NCBI RefSeq assembly: GCF_025766255.1
Contig: NW_026516678.1
Span: 310,001-374,000, forward strand
DNA from: Zychaea mexicana
Lineage: Eukaryota > Mucoromycota > Mucoromycetes > Mucorales > Lichtheimiaceae
Reading direction: 5' to 3'
DNA length: 64,000 bases
A program made the position numbers and the translations under genes. Of the stretch, positions 12,999-41,396 are shown in pieces. Below the pieces are notes generated by a model. That model had not been told where the DNA came from. It saw only the letters and a program-made list of their open reading frames with translations, and did not search any database. Numbering within the stretch: position 1 is the first letter of the stretch; the number at the start of each line of letters is the position of its first letter.

Positions 12999-14374
12999 AT
13001 GCCACCAAAGAAGGCCGTCAAAGAAGAGAAGCTTTTGCTTGGTCGTCCCTCCAACAACTTGAAGATCGGTGTTGTCGGCCTTCCAAACGTTGGCAAGTCG
13101 ACCTTCTTCAACGCCCTGACAAACTCATCGGCTGCTGCTGAAAACTATCCTTTCTGTACCATCGGTAAGGGCTTTCTCAAATTTTTTTTTGAAAGAAAAA
13201 GTTAATGGAGAAAAGGGACTGAGCTAATGCCAACATGTCTCGGTGACGGGCAATATAGATCCGGAAGAAGCCCGTGTTGCTGTTCCCGATGCACGCTTCG
13301 ATTGGTTGGTTCAGCACTACAAGCCTGCCAAGGAGATCCCTGCTTTCGTATGTATTTCCTTGTTCCTATAATTGACATTGGGATGCTGGGATTGACAATT
13401 ACTGGAGGGACTCACGTATCGTTATCATGTAGTTGACTGTCATTGATATTGCCGGTTTGGTCAAGGGTGCTGCCAGCGGTGCTGGTCTCGGTAACGCTTT
13501 CTTGTCGCACATCAAGGCCGTCGATGCCATTTTCCACGTTGTGCGTGCCTTTGACGATCCCGATGTGACTCACGTTGAAGGTGACTTGGACCCCGTCCGT
13601 GACATTGAGATCATCCACGAAGAACTCCGTTTGAAGGACGAGGAATTCCTTGCCAAGAACGTGGCTGAATTGGGAGGCTCTGTCAAGCGTTTGGGCCATG
13701 GTGGCAATGCACAGGACAAGGCGCGCAAGGAAGAATTTGCCGTCGTTGAAAAGGTGTACAGTCACGTCAAGGAAGGCAAAGAAGTGCGTCACGGCGTTTG
13801 GACCAACAAGGAAATTGAAGTCATCAACACCTTGCACCTGATCACGGCCAAGCCTGTCATTTACTTGGCCAACTGCAGTGAAAAGGACTTTTTGCGCAAA
13901 AAGAACAAGCACTTGCCCAAGATCAAGGCCTGGATCGATGAGCACTCAAAGGGTGACTTGATGATCCCTTACTCGGGTGCCTTTGAGCAGCGCCTCTCGT
14001 TGATCGAGGACAAGGAGGAGCGTGAACAGACCATGAAGGAGTTGGGCGGTAACTCCATGTTGCCCAAGATCATTGTCGCTGGCTACAGTGCTCTGCAGCT
14101 CATCTACTACTTTACTGGTGGTCCGGATGAAGTCCGTGCTTGGACCATTCGTCGTCTCACCAAGGCTCCTCAGGCTGCTGGTGTCATTCACACTGATTTT
14201 GAGCGTGGTTTCATTATGGCCGAAGTCATGAAGTACGACGACTTGAAGGAATTCGGCAGCGAAAACCAGGTCAAGGCGAACGGCAAGTACCACCAAAAGG
14301 GCAAGGAATACGTTGTGGAGGATGGCGACATCATCTACTTCAAGTTCAACGTCACTGCTTCAAAGAAGAAATAG
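12999..14374 (+). CDS. OLA1: Obg-like ATPase OLA1 (YchF family)
   Basis: Three exons (12999-13164, 13259-13347, 13433-14374) give 398 residues, as in other OLA1 proteins. The P-loop GLPNVGKST starts near residue 28. The G3 motif is DIAGLVKGA and the G4 position reads NCSEKDF, the non-canonical NxxE form that makes YchF/OLA1 prefer ATP. A helical middle region follows, then the C-terminal TGS domain ([32 protein letters not shown]). It associates with ribosomes and acts in translation and stress responses. C-rich codon choice (AAG, GTC, CGT) marks high expression. Confidence 0.97.
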
Positions 14375-14554: not shown

Positions 14555-16334
14555 TCATGAAAGGGTATGTGGAGTTTGTTGCCGTCTTTCGTCGACATTG
14601 CTGTCGTTGTCATTATCATCATCATCATCATCACCGAGTACTTCTTTCATAACGTTGTCCTCGGTAACATACAAAGTGTTGGCACCCTGGGCTGCCATAT
14701 CAATCATCCATGGCGGCACTGGCTGTTCAATGATACCTCTCAACGACAGTTGTCTAAGACCTTCCATCACATTTCTCCCTTTGATCTTGACTTGTAATTT
14801 AATCAAATCACTGCCATCTTCTGCCGCTGCTTCTGCAATACTGGGTTCCAGCATGTCCTTCAATGAGTGGGTTATCTAATATACACAGTCCACCACCACA
14901 GCAAGAGAGAAGTTAGTAATCGTTCCTTTTTTTTTCAAAAACAATTCTTTCTCGAATATGCACTTACATGAATATTCAACTTCTCCAATCCCTGAACCAC
15001 TTTGGTGCCGAATGTTGCTCTTGTCTGACTATACCGGTTCCTGAGCACGTCGCGATTTAAAGGTACCACACGACGTCGACGTTCACGTCCTGTCACATAG
15101 GCATCATCAGCCTCTTCAGATGCTGATCTTTTTTTAAGCTGTTTCTGAAGGTCGAGCGGGTTGGTATCGAACTCGTTCTCTCGCAATTGATTGATTGGGC
15201 CTAGAGAATTGTAGTTTTTGGCAATTTCAGCGATTTTATCGACGTCGTTGGTTTCGGTATTTCTTTCCACAACTGAAGTGCCTCCAAACACAAGTGCAAC
15301 TGACTAATTTTTTTTATACAAAACGAGAACATTTTGTGAGTTTTGGGTTGTTTTTCGCGTTGTGGAAAAGCATAGTAGAGTTTTACCTGTTGAACGATTT
15401 GTCGAATTGCTGAACGGTTGGCTTTGAGCGCTGCTACATAGGGCGTGTCAGGATATCGGACGAGGTAGATCGTTTCCGATGAGCCTGGTAGTTCGTCGGA
15501 ATCGGCCGAAGCGAACAGAGCGATTCGTATCCAATCTGTCTTTTGTTCTTCATTGCGCATCACAAAGACATGCTATACTTTCCTCCCAACTGCGTTAAGT
15601 AATCGATTACTCCCGAGATACACATGATATGAACAAGAAAATAAAAAGAGAGAGAGAGAGAGAGAGTTTTCCTTACACATTTGAAATACATATTTAACCG
15701 TTCCTGTATACGGTGGCATATCATCGAGCCATTCAATGAGAGTTCAAGCTGTTCTACGTCTAAAAATACAGATCGGTTTGTTAATAATGATGACACTCAA
15801 AACAGATTGGAAATAAATTGTTATATCCATTACCTCCTTTGATCTCCCACAATCTTGAGACTAGACGAACCCTTTTATGTATCATGGCTGGTTCAAGAGT
15901 AAAAAGTTAAAAAGACATCCTGGTGGTTTTGCATGATATAAACGTTTTCAAGTAGTTCACGATATAATAAGAAAACGATACATACTTGTCAAATCCAATT
16001 GAGCGACTTGGTACATTGTTAATCCGTCTTTCTAGAATTGACAAGAGATCTTATTAGTAAGTTGATTTTTCTTCAACATTAAAAGTCGATTGTTATTTTT
16101 TACCCAATCTCTATAGATCAAATCACACAAAGCAGCTTTCTTTCGACCGTCTTCATATTGTTTATAGTCGCCCCAAGTTCGGTGTGTGCTTGGTTTAAGT
16201 TTGGGATTGTTCCACCATTCTTTGACACAAGTCAACACATCGGTGTGGTTGGAACGGGTAAAGATAGCATAAACGGATTTGCTATAGGTGAGACGGTACA
16301 GATCTTGTTTGGAGAGTGATCTGGTGTTCAACAT
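14555..16334 (-). CDS. CENP-N/Chl4 family inner kinetochore protein
   Basis: About seven exons give roughly 420 residues. The order of blocks fits CENP-N/Chl4/Mis15. There is a helical N-terminus with LTMYQVAQLDLT, which matches the family's WPDGLTLYQLAQID-type segment. A beta region follows: TDWIRIALF...ETIYLVRYPDTPYVAAL, where human CENP-N has WIRIAW...YVVYYSQTPY. Next come IRQIVQQ|SVALVFGGTSVVER and a basic linker (GRERRRRVVPLN). The C-terminal block IKLQVKIKGRNVMEGLRQL...GIIEQPVPPW mirrors LIKFSSPHLLEALKSL. A poly-Asp tail ends the protein. In other organisms it binds centromeric CENP-A nucleosomes with CENP-L as part of CCAN. All exon phases I traced agree. Divergent from STS1. Confidence 0.78.
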
Positions 16335-17030: not shown

Positions 17031-18449
17031 ATGACCTCACTTTATCCACCTCACAACGGAATGATTAAAGGTAAAGCAATTCCTACTGGAAATTGTATAT
17101 ATAAATTGCCTTTTGCTTATTGTATGGTGTTGCGTATGACTTTCTTGCTAGGCCGAAAACGCCGACTTTCCGAAGACGAAGACATGGGTGATGCCTCGGC
17201 GCCATTACCAAGCTCACCCCTTCGAAATCACCATCACCGTCCTGTTCTTCATGGCAACAACAGCAACCACGACATTAACAAACGCTACAAAACCGGCATG
17301 ACGAAACAATCAGGCACTGCAGCCATGTTAGGTAAATTCCGCACATTGCTTGTGTGCGTTTGTGTTGTGTGTGCATGTACACCTGTAAAGTGTCATACTA
17401 AACTAAAAGCATGTGTTTTCAAAAGCTTCGCTGGACAAGGACAAACTCATTCATATCGTACACACGCTCTTTGACACGCACCCAGAACTACGACAAGACA
17501 TTATGAACTACATACCAGCACCCAGTGTGCATACCGCAGCAGTTGTGCTCAACAACTTGGAGAAGCGTGTGCACGACAGCTTCCCCTATAACCGCAACGG
17601 TCCCTCTAGAAATGACTATACATTCTCACGAGTACGCGGTGCCCTTGTTGAGCTGATCGTACGTATCATCCCTCCACTGTATTATGCGCAGTAGCAGCAG
17701 CAGCAGCATTAGTATGATGATTCACTGACGCATAAGAATTATTAGGACACTGCCATCCAATACGCCGATCATTTTACATCATCCACAGCATTTCCACCAC
17801 AGGCATTTGCATTCTTACACATGGCCACTAGCTTAGCACATCGGTTGCCGTTGTGGGACAGTGAAGGTAGAATAACCATTTCCTGTAGTATAATGATGAA
17901 AAAAAAAGTCCCTAAAACTCATGTAAACTAAACTCTTGCTAGAAAACAACGAACTTAAACGGGATTTGTACCGGGTTCTTGACGAGTGTTGGAAGTCAGC
18001 ATCACGGTATGCTGCATCCAAGATTCGGGAAGGAGAGTCGTATAGCCTTCAGGCGGTGAAGGAGTGGGCCAAAAAGTAAGTAGCAGTTCAAGTAGTAATA
18101 GTAGCAACCAAGACAGTGGCTTCTTTTTTCCCCTTGCAACACTACACAAGACCCCCCCCCTCCCTTCCTCTCCTCTCCTCCTACCCAGACATATGCACAA
18201 GACGACTGACTGACTGATTGATTGATTGATTGATTTGGTTATAGTTTGGCGGAGCACAATCACTATACAGGAAACCTATTCTTCACGGAAGCAGTGCAGG
18301 AGTTTTCCAAACGGCTAGGATTCTTGATCGGACTGCCGCACAACGAAGCACCACATGACGCTCCAATATGCCATCACCCTGCACAAAGTGACATTGCTCG
18401 CTTGGCTTCTCCCCCACGCGTTGTTGGCTATGCTGATGCACGGAGATAG
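17031..18449 (+). CDS. STS1: Cut8/STS1 nuclear proteasome-tethering factor
   Basis: Six exons (17031-17070, 17152-17331, 17426-17658, 17746-17866, 17943-18075, 18245-18449) give 303 residues. Cut8/Sts1 tethers the 26S proteasome to the nuclear envelope and is needed for nuclear proteolysis and mitosis. Family blocks: SLDKDKLIHIVHTLFDTHPE, LNNLEKRVHDSFPYN, RNDYTFSRVRGALVELI, and FLHMATSLAHRLPLWD. The N-terminus has a nuclear-signal-like GRKRRLSEDE and a Lys/Thr-rich segment, the part that binds the proteasome in Cut8. Intron 5 contains a tandem GATT run near 18217-18234. The first exon encodes only 13 residues. Confidence 0.93.
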
Positions 18450-18996: not shown

Positions 18997-20190
18997 TCAC
19001 GTCGACTCTTGTGCTACTACATCGAGTATTCGTTCCTTGACTCGACCAGCAACATTCTGTACAGCAGTTTCCATCAATGCATAGATCCCACTGAATGCCC
19101 CCAAAATACCAAATACAATGGTGACCAAAATGACAAACGCAACAAAGACGACGATGCCTCCCAGAGCAGCATCACCACTGCACGTTTTGAAATCTGCCAC
19201 GTAGCACCCGTACCACGGACCATCACCACAACAGCAACACAGCCATGCTGCTGGGGATGTTGATGGGTCACCACCGGTCATGGGTGATGATGCTGTTGCA
19301 CAGCAATACACCAGATAGATGATGCCCAGCATGGAGACACTGACCAGACCAGCGAGCAGATAGACACGGTCTAGCCACAGAATCGTTGGACCATGCCAAT
19401 CGTCAGGATCTCCATGGTCACCATCGACACCACTGCCGCCTAGTAAGTAGATATGGACCACTTTGCACACATACGCCATGCCGATCGTGAACAGCAGGAT
19501 CAGCAGAACCGTGATTGAACGTAAAAAGTAAGGATGCGATACGATAGCGGCAAACTTGGGCCGGTAGATGTTGTACCGGTAGCCGCACAGGTCGCAGGCA
19601 ACATGTGATTCCTGTCGGGGAGATAACTCACGCCACCGGTTCAGGCAGTCAACATGAATGTACATCATGCTCCCCTTACATTTACAAGGTCGTATCAATG
19701 GGTTATCTGTATTTCTTTTCGTTGTCTTTTGTTTGGCTGTTTTCTGCTGTTGTTGCTGTTGTGTTGTTGATGACATGGTTGGATGGTTTGGGTATCGTTG
19801 TTGTTCTTGTTGTTGATCGTTGTGATAGTAGTTTCCTACGAGTTGATTTTCTTCGTCGCCGTCGTCTTCTTCTTCCTCTCCTTCGCCACAAATGCGACAG
19901 GATTTGGAGAATTCATCTGAATCGTCACTGTGATTGATTGCAATCGACACAATGTCTGGCTCAGCTTCTAGTAATGCTGCTGTTTCTTCTTTACGGATGT
20001 CATTGTCATTACTGTAATGGTGGTTGTTGCTGTTGCCAGTACTATTACTACTGCTACTGCTGTTGATTGAATAAGTCCGGAAATGGTTCTTGTTGTTATC
20101 GTTGCTTATGCTACTGCTGTTGCCACCTGCCATATTCTGGATCGCTGTCGTCGTTTCGTTGTTATTTTTTAAAGGCACGGAACGCAACAA
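18997..20190 (-). CDS. RINGv (MARCH-type) membrane E3 ligase
   Basis: An intronless gene of 397 residues. A Ser/Asn-rich start leads to a C4HC3 RINGv domain: CRIC near residue 97, then CKCKGSMMYIHVDCLNRW near residue 170 and CDLCGYRY near 200. A low-complexity acidic/Gln-rich insert of about 70 residues separates the first zinc pair from the rest, where MARCH proteins have about 15. Three hydrophobic segments follow: SITVLLILLFTIGMAYVC, YLLAGLVSVSMLGIIYLVYC and GGIVVFVAFVILVTIVFGIL. A Cys cluster (WLCCCCGDGPWYGC) lies between the second and third. It likely ubiquitinates membrane cargo. Diverges from HSP104. Confidence 0.9.
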   Translation of the reverse strand: MLRSVPLKNNNETTTAIQNMAGGNSSSISNDNNKNHFRTYSINSSSSSNSTGNSNNHHYSNDNDIRKEETAALLEAEPDIVSIAINHSDDSDEFSKSCRICGEGEEEEDDGDEENQLVGNYYHNDQQQEQQRYPNHPTMSSTTQQQQQQKTAKQKTTKRNTDNPLIRPCKCKGSMMYIHVDCLNRWRELSPRQESHVACDLCGYRYNIYRPKFAAIVSHPYFLRSITVLLILLFTIGMAYVCKVVHIYLLGGSGVDGDHGDPDDWHGPTILWLDRVYLLAGLVSVSMLGIIYLVYCCATASSPMTGGDPSTSPAAWLCCCCGDGPWYGCYVADFKTCSGDAALGGIVVFVAFVILVTIVFGILGAFSGIYALMETAVQNVAGRVKERILDVVAQEST

Positions 20191-21383
20191 AAAAGAAGGG
20201 GGGGGAGGTGTAGATTGTGGTGGGGAGGGTTTTACCGTAAGGTTGTATGATGATCAATGAAATAAAAGAAGGCAGAAAGCAGGAGCTTTATAGTGGTAAA
20301 AACCAGTGAAATAGCTGGAAAGTGAGGTATAGATGCACAATTGCTCAATTCCTGTGGCACTCACAAACATAGACGTCTTCTTTTTTTGGCTCCACCACTA
20401 TTTGCCAAGTGTTCCATTCGGTTTCCTTATGCATGATAGATCGCTATTTGAAAAAACCTAGTATGTGGAACATGTATTACACCAGCCACCGTTTCCGTAA
20501 AATGCCAACGTATGACAAGGACCAAAGCCCTCCATTTACTAGCAACACAATACTGAACTTCGTCCATGTTTTTTTATTCTTATTGTGACAGCAACCCCCT
20601 ATTAAATGCAGGCACTGTATCTTATCCTCTAATGCCATCACATATTGGAAGGTGACACGGTGTGTAATCGCACTATGATTTGACATCCAAGCTGAAGATA
20701 GTATCCAGAAGTGGCATGAGTTAAGAATTGGATAGCTCTCAATGAGGCAAGATGCGTACGTACGCCGATATAAAAAGTCTATAACATTACAAACACACAG
20801 ATATTCATGCAAAATACCCCTCATCTATGGTAATTGCCTGATAGAAATGACTGAAGAGAACAATGCTGCCGTCAGGTGCTCATTGTTAATATTGCTTAGC
20901 GATAGACAGGAAATAAACCATTGTTAATATATCACCTCATATTTCGACCATTAATTACCATATCATAACGTGAAAGGACGGATTGATAAGATCCCTTGGA
21001 TACAAAGTAAAGGAGGTTAGAAAGGGATCCGTTGCAGGAAAACAACGATGATCTACAGCCATCAGTTCGATAAACCCTCGATTCCGATTTTCAGGTGGAA
21101 GATCTAAACTCCGGGCACAGGAGGATGATCATCGATCACTGGGTGCTAACTTACCAGCACTTGCTGGCATGCTGTAGAAATTGCTGGAAAAGCGGAACCA
21201 TAATTTTTCTGGCATGTTCAACCATTTTCGAGCAAAAGAGCAGCTGCATAAAACATATAAAACCGATACAAACCCCTCCCACCTTTTCCTTCTTGCTTCC
21301 CGCAACTTTTTTTTTATCTTCACTCGCTTCTAACTCCCACAAGAAACATATACACAAGCTATATATACACACACACACACACC
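20191..21383. promoter_or_regulatory. Divergent region between RINGv gene and HSP104
   Basis: A 1.2-kb interval with no convincing gene; a 115-codon minus frame at 20477-20824 has no family resemblance. The HSP104-proximal 200 bp carries the GAA/TTC array, an STRE-like CCCCT (21273-21277) and a TATAAAA box at 21256-21262, about 122 bp before the ATG. Confidence 0.55.
21177..21229 (+). promoter_or_regulatory. Candidate heat-shock element array upstream of HSP104
   Basis: GAA triplets begin at 21177 and 21187, and TTC triplets at 21207, 21217 and 21227. All five lie on the same 10-bp grid, the spacing of gapped HSF binding sites (nGAAn units skipping one). A further GAA at 21195 is off the grid. 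Position is 155-207 bp before the ATG. HSF control of HSP104 is well known in fungi; the site call here is inference from spacing. Confidence 0.45.
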
Positions 21384-24146
21384 ATGGCAGGCATGGAATT
21401 TACAGAAAAAGTCGAGAAAGCTCTCGGCATTGCACAAAGTCTCGCACGTGAATTCGGCCATATCCAAATCTATCCAGCCCATATCGCCTGTGCTCTCTTT
21501 GACGAAACCGATGGACAATCCTTATTCAAGTCAGTGATTGAAAAGGCCGGTAGCGAGCCTACAACTGTAGAGCGTGCTTACAAGAAACAGATGATCAATC
21601 TGCCCACCCAGGATCCACCGCCGGCCGAGATATCGATTGGCACGGGCACAAGCAAGTTGCTTCGGAACGCCCAGTCGCACATGAAGAAGCAAAAGGATTC
21701 GTTTATTTCGGTCGACCACGTTATTCTTGCCCTTGCCGACGACAATCAATCTTTTGAGCCCATGCAAAATGCCGGCATTACCAAACAAGCGCTCGAGAAT
21801 GCCGTTTCCCAAGTCCGTGGCAACCGACGCGTTGACAGCAAGAACGCCGAAGAAGTCTACGAAGCTCTGAGCAAGTACGCTATCGACTTGACCCAAATGG
21901 CACGCACTGGCAAACTAGATCCCGTGATTGGCCGCGATGATGAAATTCGTCGCGTCATTCGTGTACTGGCCCGCCGTACGAAAAACAACCCCGTCTTGAT
22001 TGGTGAGCCCGGTGTCGGTAAAACTGCCATTGTCGAAGGTCTCGCCCGGCGCATTGTCGAGCGCGATGTTCCACAAACGCTGCAGTGCAAGTTGTTTGCG
22101 TTGGATATGGGCGCACTCATTGCAGGTGCAAAGTACCGTGGCGAGTTTGAAGAACGACTCAAGGCAGTGCTCAAGGAGGTCAAGGAATCCGAGGACGGCG
22201 TGATTTTGTTTATCGATGAAATACACACAGTGCTGGGTGCTGGTAAGGGTGAAGGGTCCATGGATGCAGCCAATTTGCTCAAACCCATGTTGGCTCGTGG
22301 CGAGCTGCGTTGCATTGGTGCTACCACCATTACCGAATACCGCCAAATTGAAAAGGATCCAGCCGTAAGTTTTATTCTTGTTCATGCATAACAACAACAG
22401 TGAATATATCAGTGATACCCAAAATTAATCTCTTGTTTACTCTAGTTTGAACGCCGTTTTCAAAAAGTCGATGTGGGTGAACCCTCTGTCCCAGCTACTA
22501 TTTCGATTCTCCGTGGTTTGAAGGAGCGATACGAAAACTATCACGGCGTCAAGATTACCGATTCGGCTCTTGTCGCCGCCGCCCAGCTCTCCGACCGTTA
22601 TATCACCACCCGCTTTTTACCCGACAAGGCTATTGATTTGATTGATGAAGCAGCTGCCAACACCCGTGTGCAGCTTGACTCGAAACCCGAAGAGATCGAT
22701 GTGCTCGAACGCCGCCACTTCCAGCTCGAAATTGAAGCCATGGCGCTTTCCAAAGAAAAGCACAACAAGGAGTCGCAAGAACGTCTGGCCAAAGTCCGCG
22801 AAGAGATGGCCCAAGTGCAAGAAGAGCTCAAGCCGCTCAAACTCAAGTATGACATGGACAAGGGCCGATTGGACGAAATTCGTGAATTGAAGCAAAAGCT
22901 GGACGAGTTACGACGCAAGGCTCTCGAAGCACGAAACCGGTACGATTTGGACACGGCTGCAGATATCGAGTACTATGCTATTCCAGACGTTGAGCAGCGC
23001 GTCCAGACGCTGATGGAACAAAAGCAGCAGAAACTTGCCGAGATGGCAGCTAACCCGGATGCCCAACCGGCATTGAGCGAGCTTGTACGTCCTGAGCAGA
23101 TCATGGAAGTCGTGTCGCGCTGGACCGGTATTCCTGTCACCAACCTGGCCAAGAGCGAGCGTGAGAAGCTGCTACACATGGAAGCCGAGTTGCGTCGCAA
23201 GGTGGTTGGCCAAGATCCTGCCATCCGTGCTGTCAGCAATGCTATTCGTCTTACCAAGGCTGGTCTGCAGAATCCAAACAAGCCATTGGCCAGTTTCCTT
23301 TTTCTTGGTCCCACCGGCGTCGGCAAAACTTTGTTGTGCAAGACCTTGGCTGAATTCCTGTTTAATGACGAGCGTGCACTGATCCGTATCGATATGAGCG
23401 AATTGATGGAACAACACAGTGTTGCCAAGCTGATCGGTGCCCCACCAGGTTACGTCGGTCACGAAGAAGGTGGTTTATTCGAATCCGTGCGTCGCAAGCC
23501 TTACTCTGTTGTCTTGCTGGATGAACTGGAAAAAGCACACAAGGACGTTGCCAATGTGCTTTTGCAAGTACTGGACGAAGGCTTTATCCACGATTCCAAG
23601 GGTCGCAAGATCGATTTCCGCAACACCATCATTGTCATGACATCCAACTTGGGAGCCCACTTGTTGGCTGAACAGTCGGCACACGGTCAGTCACCCGAGT
23701 CGGTCATCCTGAAGGAACAGATCCAGCAAATCGTCCGCCAGCATTTCAGCCCTGAGTTTACCAACCGTATTGATGAGATTGTCATTTTCGAACGGTTGTC
23801 ACAGAACAACATTACCGATATTGTCGATGTTCGCTTGGAGGAGGTTCAGGAACGACTTGATGACCGCAAAATCAAGTTGGATGTCTCGCCGGCTGCCAAG
23901 CACTGGTTGGCCGAAAATGGTTATGAACCCGTCTTTGGTGCTCGCCCGTTGAACCGTGTGATCCAACAACGCTTGTTGAACCCACTTGCTCGACTTATCA
24001 TTGATGGTGGCGTTCGTCCAGGCGAGACAGCTCATGTGGATGTCGTAAGTGAAGGTTCTATCGATGTCAGGCGCAACCATGAAAGCCAAAGCGATTTTGA
24101 AATTGAGGAACCGATGGATCAAGATGATGAAATGAGCGACGAGTAA
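21384..24146 (+). CDS. HSP104: Hsp104/ClpB disaggregase
   Basis: Two exons (21384-22364, 22446-24146) give 892 residues. Hsp104 is a hexameric AAA+ unfoldase that rescues aggregated protein with Hsp70/40 and maintains prions in yeast. The Clp N-domain repeats occupy residues 1-150. NBD1 has Walker A GEPGVGKT at about 207 and Walker B ILFIDEIH. The coiled-coil M domain (about 410-530) is rich in E/K/Q. NBD2 has Walker A GPTGVGKT at about 615, Walker B LLDELEK and sensor motifs (GARPLNR). The C-terminus is acidic ([13 protein letters not shown]), as in Hsp104 rather than mitochondrial Hsp78, and no targeting peptide is present. The single intron falls between ...EKDPA and FERRFQ. Confidence 0.98.
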
Positions 24147-25070: not shown

Positions 25071-28000
25071 CTATGATGAGGAGTCGATGAGACAAACACA
25101 CCCGCAGCCCGTCGGGCAAATTTTGTGTTGTGAAAACCAATCCTTGATATGCTGGCTGTGTCCACCATGCCCGCATTTGCTGCAAAAATTGAGAATACCC
25201 TTGACCAGTACGTGACATATGCTACATCGAATTTGATTGCGCAGCTTTCGGCAGGAATAGCAGATCCGATCTCGTCCAGCAATTTCAGACCCACAAATAT
25301 AGCATCGTATTTGAACCTGCATTGTTCGTTCTGTTGCAGGAAAAGGTGGCCGACTCAGGAATTTGAGAATTTCGGCCCGTTTTTCAAGTAAGCCCCAACG
25401 ATACAGCATATCCGCATAGTTGAGTCGTAAGACATCGAGCTTAGCAATGTCTTTTGGATCGAGCAGTGATACGTCATTATTGTAAGAAAGAGCCTTGTCG
25501 CCATCATACGTTTCCAAATTCGTAAACTCAATCGTCATTTCATCCGTATAAACAAGCTTCCCTTCTTTGTCGGAAACGACGGCTTGAGATGAAGATGCAG
25601 GAGGAGTAAAAGGTGGCGGTGTTGTTATGGCAGCAGTGGCGGTTGTCATGGTGGCAGGTGGGGTCAATGGTTGGGTAGATAAATTGCGTAAGCCCGGGGC
25701 AGTATTACTAGGTATCTTTTGTTGGGTCAAGGTGCTTGTGAAGGGTCGAGTGATACGTTTGGCGTAGCCAGCGGTCGATGATTCATGCATACTCTCTGTC
25801 GCAGACTTTTCGCCAGGTGGAGTATGCCGGTCAGTATCCCAAAAATAGGATAGAAAGTTCACGCCTCGTGTTCCATACGACGCGCTCAATTGTGAAGTCG
25901 TGATACGATCTGGCGATCCAGGAAGCACTGCAACAGGCCCTGATCCAGTTCTCACCAGAGATTGTGCTCGTATATTTGATGAGTCAATGTTCCCATTTGA
26001 CATAACAGTGTGATCTGAAAGTCCGTTCTAGAATGATTATGGAGTTAAACCACATTTCACCGATAGCAATACATATTTTTACTGATAGCAGGAGTAAGCA
26101 GTCAGTTAATTTACCTTGCGTGTGGATGGCGACACTTGGGTATTACTGTTGTGGAATATACAGGAGAGCATAGCAGCAGTTTGAATATCACCAATACTCA
26201 TGAAATGCTGCAACCTACATATGATAGTAAGTATATGCTCCTGCACATTTGGTGTGATCCTGCTCTGCCACCACTTACAAGTTATTGATAAGCTTCCTTC
26301 CTAATGGATGCAGTCCCCATTTGACACGTCGTTTCTTTGGTATCCGCTTGCTCGATTTCTTTGTCCGTTGTGTTGCTGGTCCGTACAGTATCTTTCTAAT
26401 GTCATGCAAGGTTTTGTCGTCCGTTTGGAAAATCTCAGTCTGTTCGGGAGCCCATCCTTGTTCTTTATCCAACGGGATACATTGCTTGACGATTTCGGAT
26501 GCCAAAGACCAAACCTTTGATAAGTCTGATCGATCATGATTTCGACACACGACAGCGTTATGCGTGCAGGCTGCAACTGGATCTCCCAAAGTCAAGCTAT
26601 AAATTGTAGTGAAGAGATCAATATTCAATTTTCTGGATGCGTTTACAGACCATTCATATACACTGGTTATTCTTTTAGTTAATACTAACATGTATTCTTT
26701 AGCCAAATCAGCGTCGTAGGGTAGTATTCTTTTCAGATCGACAAGTAGAACATTATATGTAATGCGATCTGTTTTTGGATTACGGTATAAAAGATTGCCG
26801 TTGTTCGATATGGATCCCGCCAATGCAAAACTCTATATGAATAAAGTAAAGTATCAGTATTATATTTTCGTATATAATAGCAGCAACATCCATACGGCAT
26901 ACATCTGGTTTGAAATATAGCGAGGTCATCGTTGTTAACCCATCGTCTATATCATCCGGATCATCATCGTAGGCATACTCGCCAAAGGCACCGCCTGTGC
27001 CACCGACAAGCACGGTCGCATTTCGCCCTTGCCGTGACATTGCTGCAATTTCCTTGTATTCTTCAAATTGTTCATATGTACGTGGATGCTTGTAGAAATC
27101 GCTGTACGTATTCTCGAAATATTCAGTGTTGCTTGCATTGCTGGTCGGGCTCGTGCCCTGTCGAGCCTCTTGCTTTTCAGCGGCGTCTTTTTGGCTTGCA
27201 CGATTGGAATCACGTACACGTAACGTTGAAAAGAAGCATACGAGTTGTCCTACATTACAAAAGCCCAAGCAGTGAATATAGTATCTACATACTTTGTGAT
27301 GCAAGAATAAATCAGTAAGAAGCGACTTACCACTTCCAGAAAAGACACCACCGCAAAGGCGAGGAAATGGTACTTTTTCGTCTGCGGTTTGTTTGGAAGA
27401 CATATCCACGACGATACCTTTTTCACTCTGCACGCTCACGCGTTTGCCTGCCATGCCATATCCACCACTGACGCCTCCCATGAATGGCGGACCGGCGAAT
27501 ATCTCGTCATCAGAGTCACCATTGTCTACACCAGTACCAGATCCGTTCCAGTAGTTGCCTGTTTGATTTCCATTTCCAAAAATGTCCTCCTTGCCCTTTT
27601 CTAAAGCTAAATCGGCGTCATCTTGTGGATTTTCTCCAAGCAAGCATCGAATGCATGCTTCGAGGCACCATCGCTTCTGGGATGTATAACTTGCTGCCAA
27701 AGCGTTCAGCTCTTGTGACATATGGGCACGATAAAAGATAGACATCATGCTATTTTTTTGAATATCAAACTCGGGGGGACTATTATCTGGATATTGCGCA
27801 CTGAAGCGGATTGTAATGCGGACAAATGTGCTTCCGGTATCTGACCACGGGCCATGCAGAGTAATAGTGCAGGTACGCGAGGCGCCGTTTACCTATTAAA
27901 ACCAACATGTTTCAACATGATTTAACTGAAATCCCTTATTACTTCAAATAAGTAGAATGCTCTTGTTGGTTACCTTTTCCGTTTTAACACCTGCACTAGC

Positions 28001-38324: not shown

Positions 38325-40064
38325 CTAATAGTGGCTGTTATGTGATGGTGTGGATATATCGATATGTGTTTGCGTTAATATTTGCTTAGCAAAATGTGTC
38401 AGTTCAGCTGGTGAAGCATCCTTGCTAAGACTTGTGATTTGTAAGGACTTTAACTTTTTCTTGCCAACGGACCAGTTATCTATGAGTCGTTGCACATTGC
38501 GATCACTCAAATTCCTGGATCCCAGAACAAGTTGCTCCAAAGACTCCACTCTTATTGACAAGGCGTCGAGAACGTATTTCGGCAAGTCGCCAGATTCAAC
38601 CAAGGACACTGAATCCATGTACGAGTCAAATCGGCAGATGGTGGACATCAGCTTGGCAGGTTCAAGCCCCTTACAATTGACAAACTTGGCTGTTTTCAAC
38701 GTTAAGTATGGTTGAGGCGTTGATACGGTGTCTTGGATTAAGTACGATGATAGTGGGCGCTTGTGACCTGCTGTTGCTGTTGCTGTATCGTTCGATGGCG
38801 TCTGGATGAAGCTGATGTTTTCGAGAACAAGCTGCTCCAAGCAGGGGAATTGGCGTAAGAGATGATCGAGATCAACTAGAGGACCACATATTTGACGGCT
38901 CTGGATAGCAAGTGATTGTAAATGGGGCGCGCCATAATATACAAAGCGTTGCACCATAGAGAATGCCATTGACCAACCAAGATCTGCTCGCATATGCAAA
39001 GCGCCCATATCGCGGCCGTGAGTTTCCAGCATTGTGCCGACACCTTCTTGACCAATAGCCATGTCATTATAAGCCAATGCCTTGTATCCCGGTGGTAACT
39101 TGCTAAACCTGGACGGACTGCATTCGTAAAAGTTTTTGCCGAATCGAATCGTTTGTAGGGACGGAAACATTGAGTTGAGCCACATTAGAAAGTCGCCTTT
39201 TTGGTAAGGTTCGCGAAGATATAAGTGCCGCAGGTTGCCAAATAGTGCCAGGATTCGCTTCAAAGTATCGGTATCAATATAGGGCACCGAGAGTTCTAGA
39301 TCCGTCACTCGTTGCATTGCTTCGTGTATAGATGTATAGGCGTCGAAAAGTGAACGTTTCCCGGTCGAGGTGACAATAGATCTGTTCTTGATGTTGGGCT
39401 GCAGGTTGTCGGATGATGGTGATGGAGGTGACATACGGCGGCAAACACATCTCAAACGAGTGAGATTAGGACACGCTGTGAATATTGTGTGAAGAAAGTC
39501 GTCGATGTTCCAGTCAATAGTGAAGACGTCTAAATCAGTTAGCGTAGGGCCGCACATGTTCAGCAGATCTTGAAGGTTCGGATTGTAGCACGCATTAGTG
39601 ACTATCAGACAGCAAAAGAATATAGTAAATTTATTACGGGCTTTTAGCAAAAAAGTGATAAAAATAGGTTGATAGATATAGGGAACTGTTTGTTTACGAG
39701 TATAAGAGATATAGTAAGGGAGGAGAGACAAAGAAAGGGAAAATATGATCTGCTTACTGGTCTGAATAGTCGAGCATCCCAAATTGATTAGTAGTGTAAC
39801 ATCATCTTGATCCTGCAGGTCAATCTTATGAATATCCCGGCCGTCAATTTTGTATGGTGCCAAATCGCGTGAGATGTTGCATCCGAAAATCTCGTGCCAC
39901 ATGGGAGGAGAGTACAGTACAAGCGATCGCCATGCTTTGGATACTTGAGTGCAGCGTACACGTTCGCGTAACGACAAATGAGATAGTATTATAAGAGAAA
40001 CATCATAAGGTAGCTCGTCTAGAAAGAAAGGTGCAGTGGAAGTAGCAACAGGCATATTGTGCAT
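38325..40064 (-). CDS. F-box protein with leucine-rich repeats
   Basis: Two exons (40064-39758 and 39601-38325) give 527 residues; the intron is a multiple of three and stays open, so it could be misread as coding. The F-box (about residues 15-55) reads LPYDVSLIILSHLSLRERVR then CTQVSKAWRSLV, the Skp1-binding helix pattern. Degenerate LRRs follow (LTDLDVFTIDW, LTRLRCVCRR, LRHLYLREPYQ, LEQLVLENISF, LEQLVLGSRNL). It is probably a substrate receptor of an SCF ubiquitin ligase. Such proteins are greatly expanded in Mucoromycota, and the substrate cannot be told from sequence. Confidence 0.85.
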   Translation of the reverse strand: MHNMPVATSTAPFFLDELPYDVSLIILSHLSLRERVRCTQVSKAWRSLVLYSPPMWHEIFGCNISRDLAPYKIDGRDIHKIDLQDQDDVTLLINLGCSTIQTSKQIIFSLSLSLLPYYISYTRKQTVPYIYQPIFITFLLKARNKFTIFFCCLIVTNACYNPNLQDLLNMCGPTLTDLDVFTIDWNIDDFLHTIFTACPNLTRLRCVCRRMSPPSPSSDNLQPNIKNRSIVTSTGKRSLFDAYTSIHEAMQRVTDLELSVPYIDTDTLKRILALFGNLRHLYLREPYQKGDFLMWLNSMFPSLQTIRFGKNFYECSPSRFSKLPPGYKALAYNDMAIGQEGVGTMLETHGRDMGALHMRADLGWSMAFSMVQRFVYYGAPHLQSLAIQSRQICGPLVDLDHLLRQFPCLEQLVLENISFIQTPSNDTATATAGHKRPLSSYLIQDTVSTPQPYLTLKTAKFVNCKGLEPAKLMSTICRFDSYMDSVSLVESGDLPKYVLDALSIRVESLEQLVLGSRNLSDRNVQRLIDNWSVGKKKLKSLQITSLSKDASPAELTHFAKQILTQTHIDISTPSHNSHY

Positions 40065-41396
40065 TGCGATGATTAACTATCTATAATTTCAGTACCGCTG
40101 TCGACTGATGACCTTTTTATATCTTTTTCTTGTCGAGTTGGCTGTCATTGCTCCTCCTGCTGCTGCTTCTTTCGCGCCGGTATCCGCGGAGGCACCATAG
40201 CCGATGCTCCAGCTTTTTTGTCTATTCTCTGATTTTAGGTTTGCCATGTGAGTCAGCCAATCTATGCGGCGGTTGTTGCGCCGCGGCACAACTATTTTAA
40301 TTGCTCCTCCTTGATCGCCGCTGTTATTTGTGCTTAAAGCAGTGTGTTACGTGAACTTGTCAGTAAAAAAATGAAATTTTTCAGTAGTTTCAATGTGAGC
40401 TACAATCGATAACCTTCCGTACGAACCTTGTTGCAAAGCATTCTACAATGCGAAACAAGTATCATCGTTGGACAGTAAAGAAAACTTCACCGTAAATCAT
40501 TGTTTACTGCCATAGGGGCAATATATTTCCACGGAGTCGTGTACTGCCGGAATCTGGTGTTCAAATATTGAAGGGGAGTAGTGTGAGGTCCTATTTTGGG
40601 AATAACCAAATTGCTGGGTTAGATAACACAGTGATGTTTCTCGGACAGCAGAGCGAAAGAGAGAATAAATATACCTGTCAGCACTCTATTTGTACATCGT
40701 ATGCAGGTTTTCGTTAGCTCATACATTCTTGGACGTGTGTATATTATGCTAGTGCAGAATCGTGAGAATTCCAGCACGCACAAACACGTGGATCGTTCAC
40801 AAGGCGTTGTCGCTGCTGCTATAGAGAACAATATACATATCTTCTGTAGCTGAGAAATCAGCAGTAGTAGTAACGCACAGATGTTGTTACCTTACGCTTA
40901 CTTAAGGCGTGAATCGCTTATCGACGGCAAAAAGAGTCATCCTGGCGCCACAACTTGATCTCTTTTCTCCGCCACATGCAGATAGTCCAGCCTCTTCTAA
41001 AATCCAGCTGATCGTATTGGTAAGAGCAAAAGAGTCAGGTTTGGTAAAATATGGAGAAACCCTTTGTAATTTTCAAGCCCCACAGAGTTACCTAATCAGC
41101 TTATGTAATCCCCGATGTCATGCAGCTTACAGAGGTTTGATGTTCCTTCTCTCCGCAAAATTTGACGGCGATACAAACAAAAGAAAACCAGGCATTTACG
41201 GAGGATGCTTGGAGAAAAGAATGTGTGTATGGAAGAACCCTGTATGATGAATTCAATGACTTTTCACGTCGTCCCTTTCAAAAAGCTCCTCTTGTATCAT
41301 TCATTTGATGGCTTTAAAAATCTAATCTAACCAAAAGAATTTCCTTTATATATAACTAGCAGGGTTTCATTGCTTCAAACATATGTGGTATACTAA
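40065..41396. other. F-box gene upstream region
   Basis: A TATAAAAAG-type motif lies near 40116-40124 on the minus side of the F-box gene. A 66-codon minus frame at 40089-40289 is GC-rich but has no family resemblance. The rest is AT-rich with no gene seen. Confidence 0.4.

Follow-up and report, generated by a model that had tools for sequence, protein, structure and literature searches.

In human cells, the inner kinetochore subunit CENP-N reads the L1 loop of the centromeric histone CENP-A through three residues in the first helix (E3, E7 and R11), and Y147 packs against the loop (PMC5777823, consulted in part). Within the human constitutive centromere-associated network (CCAN), as described in the sections consulted of PMC9463443, CENP-LN forms a channel that holds DNA. 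Human CCAN prepared without CENP-C and CENP-TWSX bound nucleosomes carrying RG-loop-mutant CENP-A like normal ones, and reversing charges in CENP-L and CENP-N abolished binding. In the fungus Mucor circinelloides, CENP-A, CENP-C and CENP-Q/U are reported to be absent and CENP-L-N to be retained (the reviews PMC9252888 and PMC7729030, citing Navarro-Mendoza et al. 2019). CENP-N and CENP-L are entered for this species in Table 1 of PMC7729030, where the CENP-A and CENP-C entries are empty; yeast, unlike Mucor, has CENP-A (Cse4) in the same table. A term search of the main text of PMC5579357 returned neither "Mucor" nor "CENP-N"/"CenpN". Here we analyse a CENP-N/Chl4 gene in a 64,000-nucleotide stretch of Zychaea mexicana DNA (the window). 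The species belongs to the order Mucorales, family Lichtheimiaceae, in agreement with the Mucoromycota origin that an earlier reading of the sequence alone had proposed, and it was not named in any paper found by our literature search.

The locus encodes an intact CENP-N orthologue

Splicing of the window sequence at 16334..14555 on the minus strand joined seven exons across six introns into an unbroken frame encoding a 418-residue protein. The ATG lies at 16334 and the stop codon at 14555-14557, which confirms the span 14555..16334 given by the sequence-only reading, and the exon phases and intactness that it had claimed also hold. All six introns are 72-104 bases long and follow GT...AG; the exons measure 231, 46, 54, 83, 186, 336 and 321 bases in order, the last including the stop codon.

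A profile scan of this protein, the check that had been proposed for its family assignment, matched Pfam family CENP-N (PF05238) with an E-value of 5.4e-37 and a score of 128.5 bits, well over the cut-off (25), thereby supporting the assignment. The alignment pairs protein residues 19-369 with positions 5-396 of the 410 in the profile. With E-values up to 10, the scan detected no family besides CENP-N and no extra DNA-binding domain. The protein is identical (100% identity, 100% coverage) to a public Z. mexicana entry (P0001) that carries the name centromere protein Chl4/mis15/CENP-N; the gene had therefore been annotated and named before. When the genome was searched with the protein, all seven matches fell at the locus itself, so no second copy was found. 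These results establish the locus as a real, intact and ordinary CENP-N/Chl4 orthologue of Z. mexicana, the sole copy found. Its exons, as defined by splicing, are as follows.

16104..16334, minus strand: exon 1, start codon and putative PYRIN-like N-terminal domain (the Pfam match starts at residue 19; the fold of the N-terminal part matches Chl4)
15986..16031, minus strand: exon 2, within the segment aligning to yeast Chl4
15834..15887, minus strand: exon 3
15677..15759, minus strand: exon 4
15387..15572, minus strand: exon 5, probable CENP-N/L homology domain with the WIRIALF and DTPYVA segments (alignment)
14968..15303, minus strand: exon 6, basic stretch RERRRR (identical in Zychaea and Phascolomyces) and TFGT segment
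14555..14875, minus strand: exon 7, expected CENP-L-binding end, acidic tail and stop codon (short match to C-terminal Chl4, not significant by itself)

At E <= 0.001, the only relative other than P0001 in the protein search was a CHL4-like protein of Phascolomyces articulosus (P0002), also of the Lichtheimiaceae. It belongs to the same Pfam family, aligns with 92% of the query at 45% identity and differs by a few short indels. A profile built from the two sequences returned P0001 and P0002 again; the conserved region 266-372, used by itself as the query, returned only P0001. A PDB sequence search also brought up four dihydropteroate synthase sequences (E about 0.4), which we regarded as chance matches.

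CENP-A and CENP-C are not detected in the Zychaea genome

The genome (50.3 Mb, 305 contigs) was searched in six frames, a procedure blind to introns. A fission-yeast CENP-A query produced seven matches, every one in an exon of a canonical H3 gene. The four genes concerned lie on contigs C68, C251, C276 and C101, and each has a plain FKTDLRFQSSAIGALQEA core from which the RG-type insertion is absent. This outcome disfavours one of the two alternatives raised by the sequence-only reading, namely that the species still has CENP-A. A histone profile, with E-values up to 10, gave 23 matches, which by our own reading of the sequences comprise eight H3 (those same four genes), six H2A-like, three H2B, three H4 and three other histone-fold pieces; on these labels, none of the 23 is a non-canonical H3. 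The intron-split H3 genes on C276 and C101 were detected, with 33-66 bits for core exons of at least 26 residues and 16-26 bits for tail or shorter pieces, so a CENP-A core exon would probably have been detectable too.

The one CENP-C candidate, on C24 (PF11699, E 4.03, 13.3 bits), was rejected: it lies far under the cut-off of 29, and weak sub-threshold matches to this profile also occur in 8 of the 14 control genomes, whose names mark them as bacteria and archaea. A profile search for Scm3 found no match in the genome at E-values up to 10; since the 14 control genomes gave none either and a positive control was lacking, this negative alone does not establish that Scm3 is absent. The negative result is thus weaker for CENP-C and Scm3 than for CENP-A.

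Other kinetochore components did exceed their Pfam cut-offs in the genome profile search: CENP-L on C25 (30.1 bits), a CENP-T histone-fold exon on C179 (33.7 bits), CENP-I on C288 (37.1 bits), Ndc80 on C263 (90.6 bits) and Mis12 on C39 (33.5 bits). Scanned alone, the C179 exon scored best against CENP-T_C (36.3 bits) and next against CENP-S (27.8). The genome search that had been suggested for CENP-A, CENP-C and CENP-L therefore recovered the last of these and gave no credible match to the first two.

Contact residues of human CENP-N in the Mucorales proteins

A human CENP-N sequence entered by hand was aligned with the Zychaea and Phascolomyces proteins only. None of the four human residues that contact CENP-A is conserved at the aligned place in either Mucorales sequence, although the N-terminal alignment is uncertain: E3 corresponds to N3 in Zychaea and a gap in Phascolomyces, E7 to K19 and A15, R11 to A23 and S19, and Y147 to S170 and S167, respectively. 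This pattern is in line with a role independent of CENP-A. A reading of these changes as relaxed selection after CENP-A loss was rejected as a conclusion, because it would draw on two sequences and an uncertain N-terminal alignment without comparison to a CENP-A-bearing fungus; nor do the changes bear on whether the protein belongs to the CENP-N family.

Turning to DNA contacts, human K296 aligns with K342 in Zychaea and T334 in Phascolomyces, while K270 is replaced by histidine in both. At nine human positions that we take to be basic nucleosome contacts (10, 15, 42, 45, 148, 169, 170, 194 and 196), lysine or arginine is present at three in Zychaea and two in Phascolomyces; a tenth printed position, 53, was dropped because the human sequence as entered carries no basic residue there. 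Judged from the alignment, these positions give no clear support for a DNA-gripping role.

A proposed role without CENP-A

We consider it very probable that the gene encodes an intact CENP-N orthologue that, as one half of a CENP-L-N dimer, helps to keep the inner kinetochore attached to DNA and does not depend on CENP-A recognition to do so. Under this model, CENP-N would pair with CENP-L, and the dimer would sit at the centre of the CCAN, linking the CENP-HIKM side to the remaining CCAN and gripping DNA in a positively charged channel for which CENP-A reading would not be needed. The gene, its family and the partner matches come from this analysis, whereas the Mucor inventory and the gripping of DNA by human CENP-LN come from the literature; that the Zychaea protein acts likewise is what we infer. 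Since a human CCAN sub-assembly with CENP-LN bound RG-loop-mutant nucleosomes like normal ones, a CENP-N without CENP-A needs no new job. The second alternative of the sequence-only reading, that CENP-N has another job, thus need not mean a new one.

Several observations weigh against this model. The PF05238 genome search missed the CENP-N gene itself at the default threshold of E <= 0.001 and, with E-values up to 10, found it weakly, as three exons with a best E-value of 0.0022; because the six-frame search is blind to introns, a fast-evolving, intron-split CENP-A or CENP-C could escape it. Evidence for CENP-L is partial: when its pieces were scanned separately, one reached 15.5 bits (cut-off 24.4) and the other had no match. 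Four histone matches also exceeded the CENP-T cut-off, three of them H4 (31.8-31.9 bits, not far from the 33.7 of the CENP-T exon) and one H3 (28.6 bits). In addition, as no further relative was found, the alignment for structure prediction stayed at two sequences and the resulting CENP-N model was poor (mean pLDDT 38.2). Foldseek with this model returned no match at E <= 0.001; its N-terminal part matched the fold of Chl4, and given the quality of the model only the matches to Chl4 and CENP-N were used, as support.

An alternative is that Zychaea retains a CENP-A too diverged to detect, which CENP-N reads as usual. CENP-A does evolve fast, and a search that overlooked a genuine CENP-N gene could overlook it as well; against this stand the detection of the intron-split canonical H3 genes, the lack of a non-canonical H3 among the histone-fold matches as we labelled them, and the failure to match Scm3, albeit without a positive control. 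We therefore regard a hidden CENP-A as very unlikely. Equally improbable is a new centromere-specifying job for CENP-N in Mucorales, for example through direct contact with a conserved centromere DNA motif. The review PMC9089191 offers the speculation that the unique centromere sequence of Mucor, a 41-bp motif, is recognised by one of the kinetochore proteins, and the RERRRR stretch shared by Zychaea and Phascolomyces would suit such a contact. However, that comparison covers two related sequences only, human CENP-LN touches the DNA backbone electrostatically, which fits sequence-independent kinetochore assembly (PMC9463443, in the sections consulted), and the Pfam scan revealed CENP-N without an added DNA-binding domain. 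The chance that the resemblance to CENP-N is fortuitous, or that the gene is a decaying remnant, is negligible: nothing was found in its favour, and the profile match, the intact frame over seven exons and the conserved relative in another genus already refute it.

A broader proposal is that in Mucorales lacking CENP-A, CENP-N and CENP-L became a main kinetochore anchor through conserved basic surfaces as the CENP-A-reading surface was lost. We hold this extension to be unlikely.

Neighbouring genes

The 3′ end of CENP-N adjoins a convergent gene for a YchF/OLA1-type GTPase (PF06071, 135.8 bits; window 13433-14374, plus strand). On its other side, CENP-N has a divergent neighbour (17407-17694, plus strand) coding for a nuclear proteasome tether of the Cut8 type (PF08559, 72.2 bits), of which more exons seem to lie upstream. 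Also present in the window are an Hsp104/ClpB-type disaggregase in two open stretches with Clp_N, AAA, AAA_2 and ClpB_D2-small domains (21261-24146, plus strand) and, on the minus strand, genes for a RINGv-domain protein (18997-20253), a zinc-ribbon/RING-like protein (25071-26027) and an F-box protein (38325-40076). Elsewhere in the genome, a diverged-looking H2A-like histone fold (L019, G000:C238:199998-200234) occurs beside more usual H2A copies.

Comparison with known kinetochores

The Zychaea protein has low identity to Saccharomyces cerevisiae Chl4 (PDB 8ow1, 6qld and others), at 16% over the fold alignment. Its C-terminal stretch scored 1.8-2.8 bits against Chl4, values that are individually not significant, and the Pfam alignment extends into this stretch. 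No entry from Mucor came up in any of the three protein searches, so the CENP-N of M. circinelloides, from the same order but another genus, is compared with it through the published inventory and not by sequence.

Of the earlier interpretation, identity, intactness and lineage stand. The surprise it attached to a CENP-N in a CENP-A-less lineage does not, as retention of CENP-L-N in M. circinelloides was already in print, and the reason given for interest is thus not new. What positions a kinetochore when CENP-A is missing is a real question, opened by that earlier work, and this CENP-N gene alone does not advance it; the biological puzzle is a known one. Zychaea mexicana adds one further Mucorales genome that keeps a CENP-L-N module and in which CENP-A and CENP-C are undetected. 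The results fit the published Mucor inventory, and the gene is an ordinary CENP-N in a clade already known as CENP-A-less.
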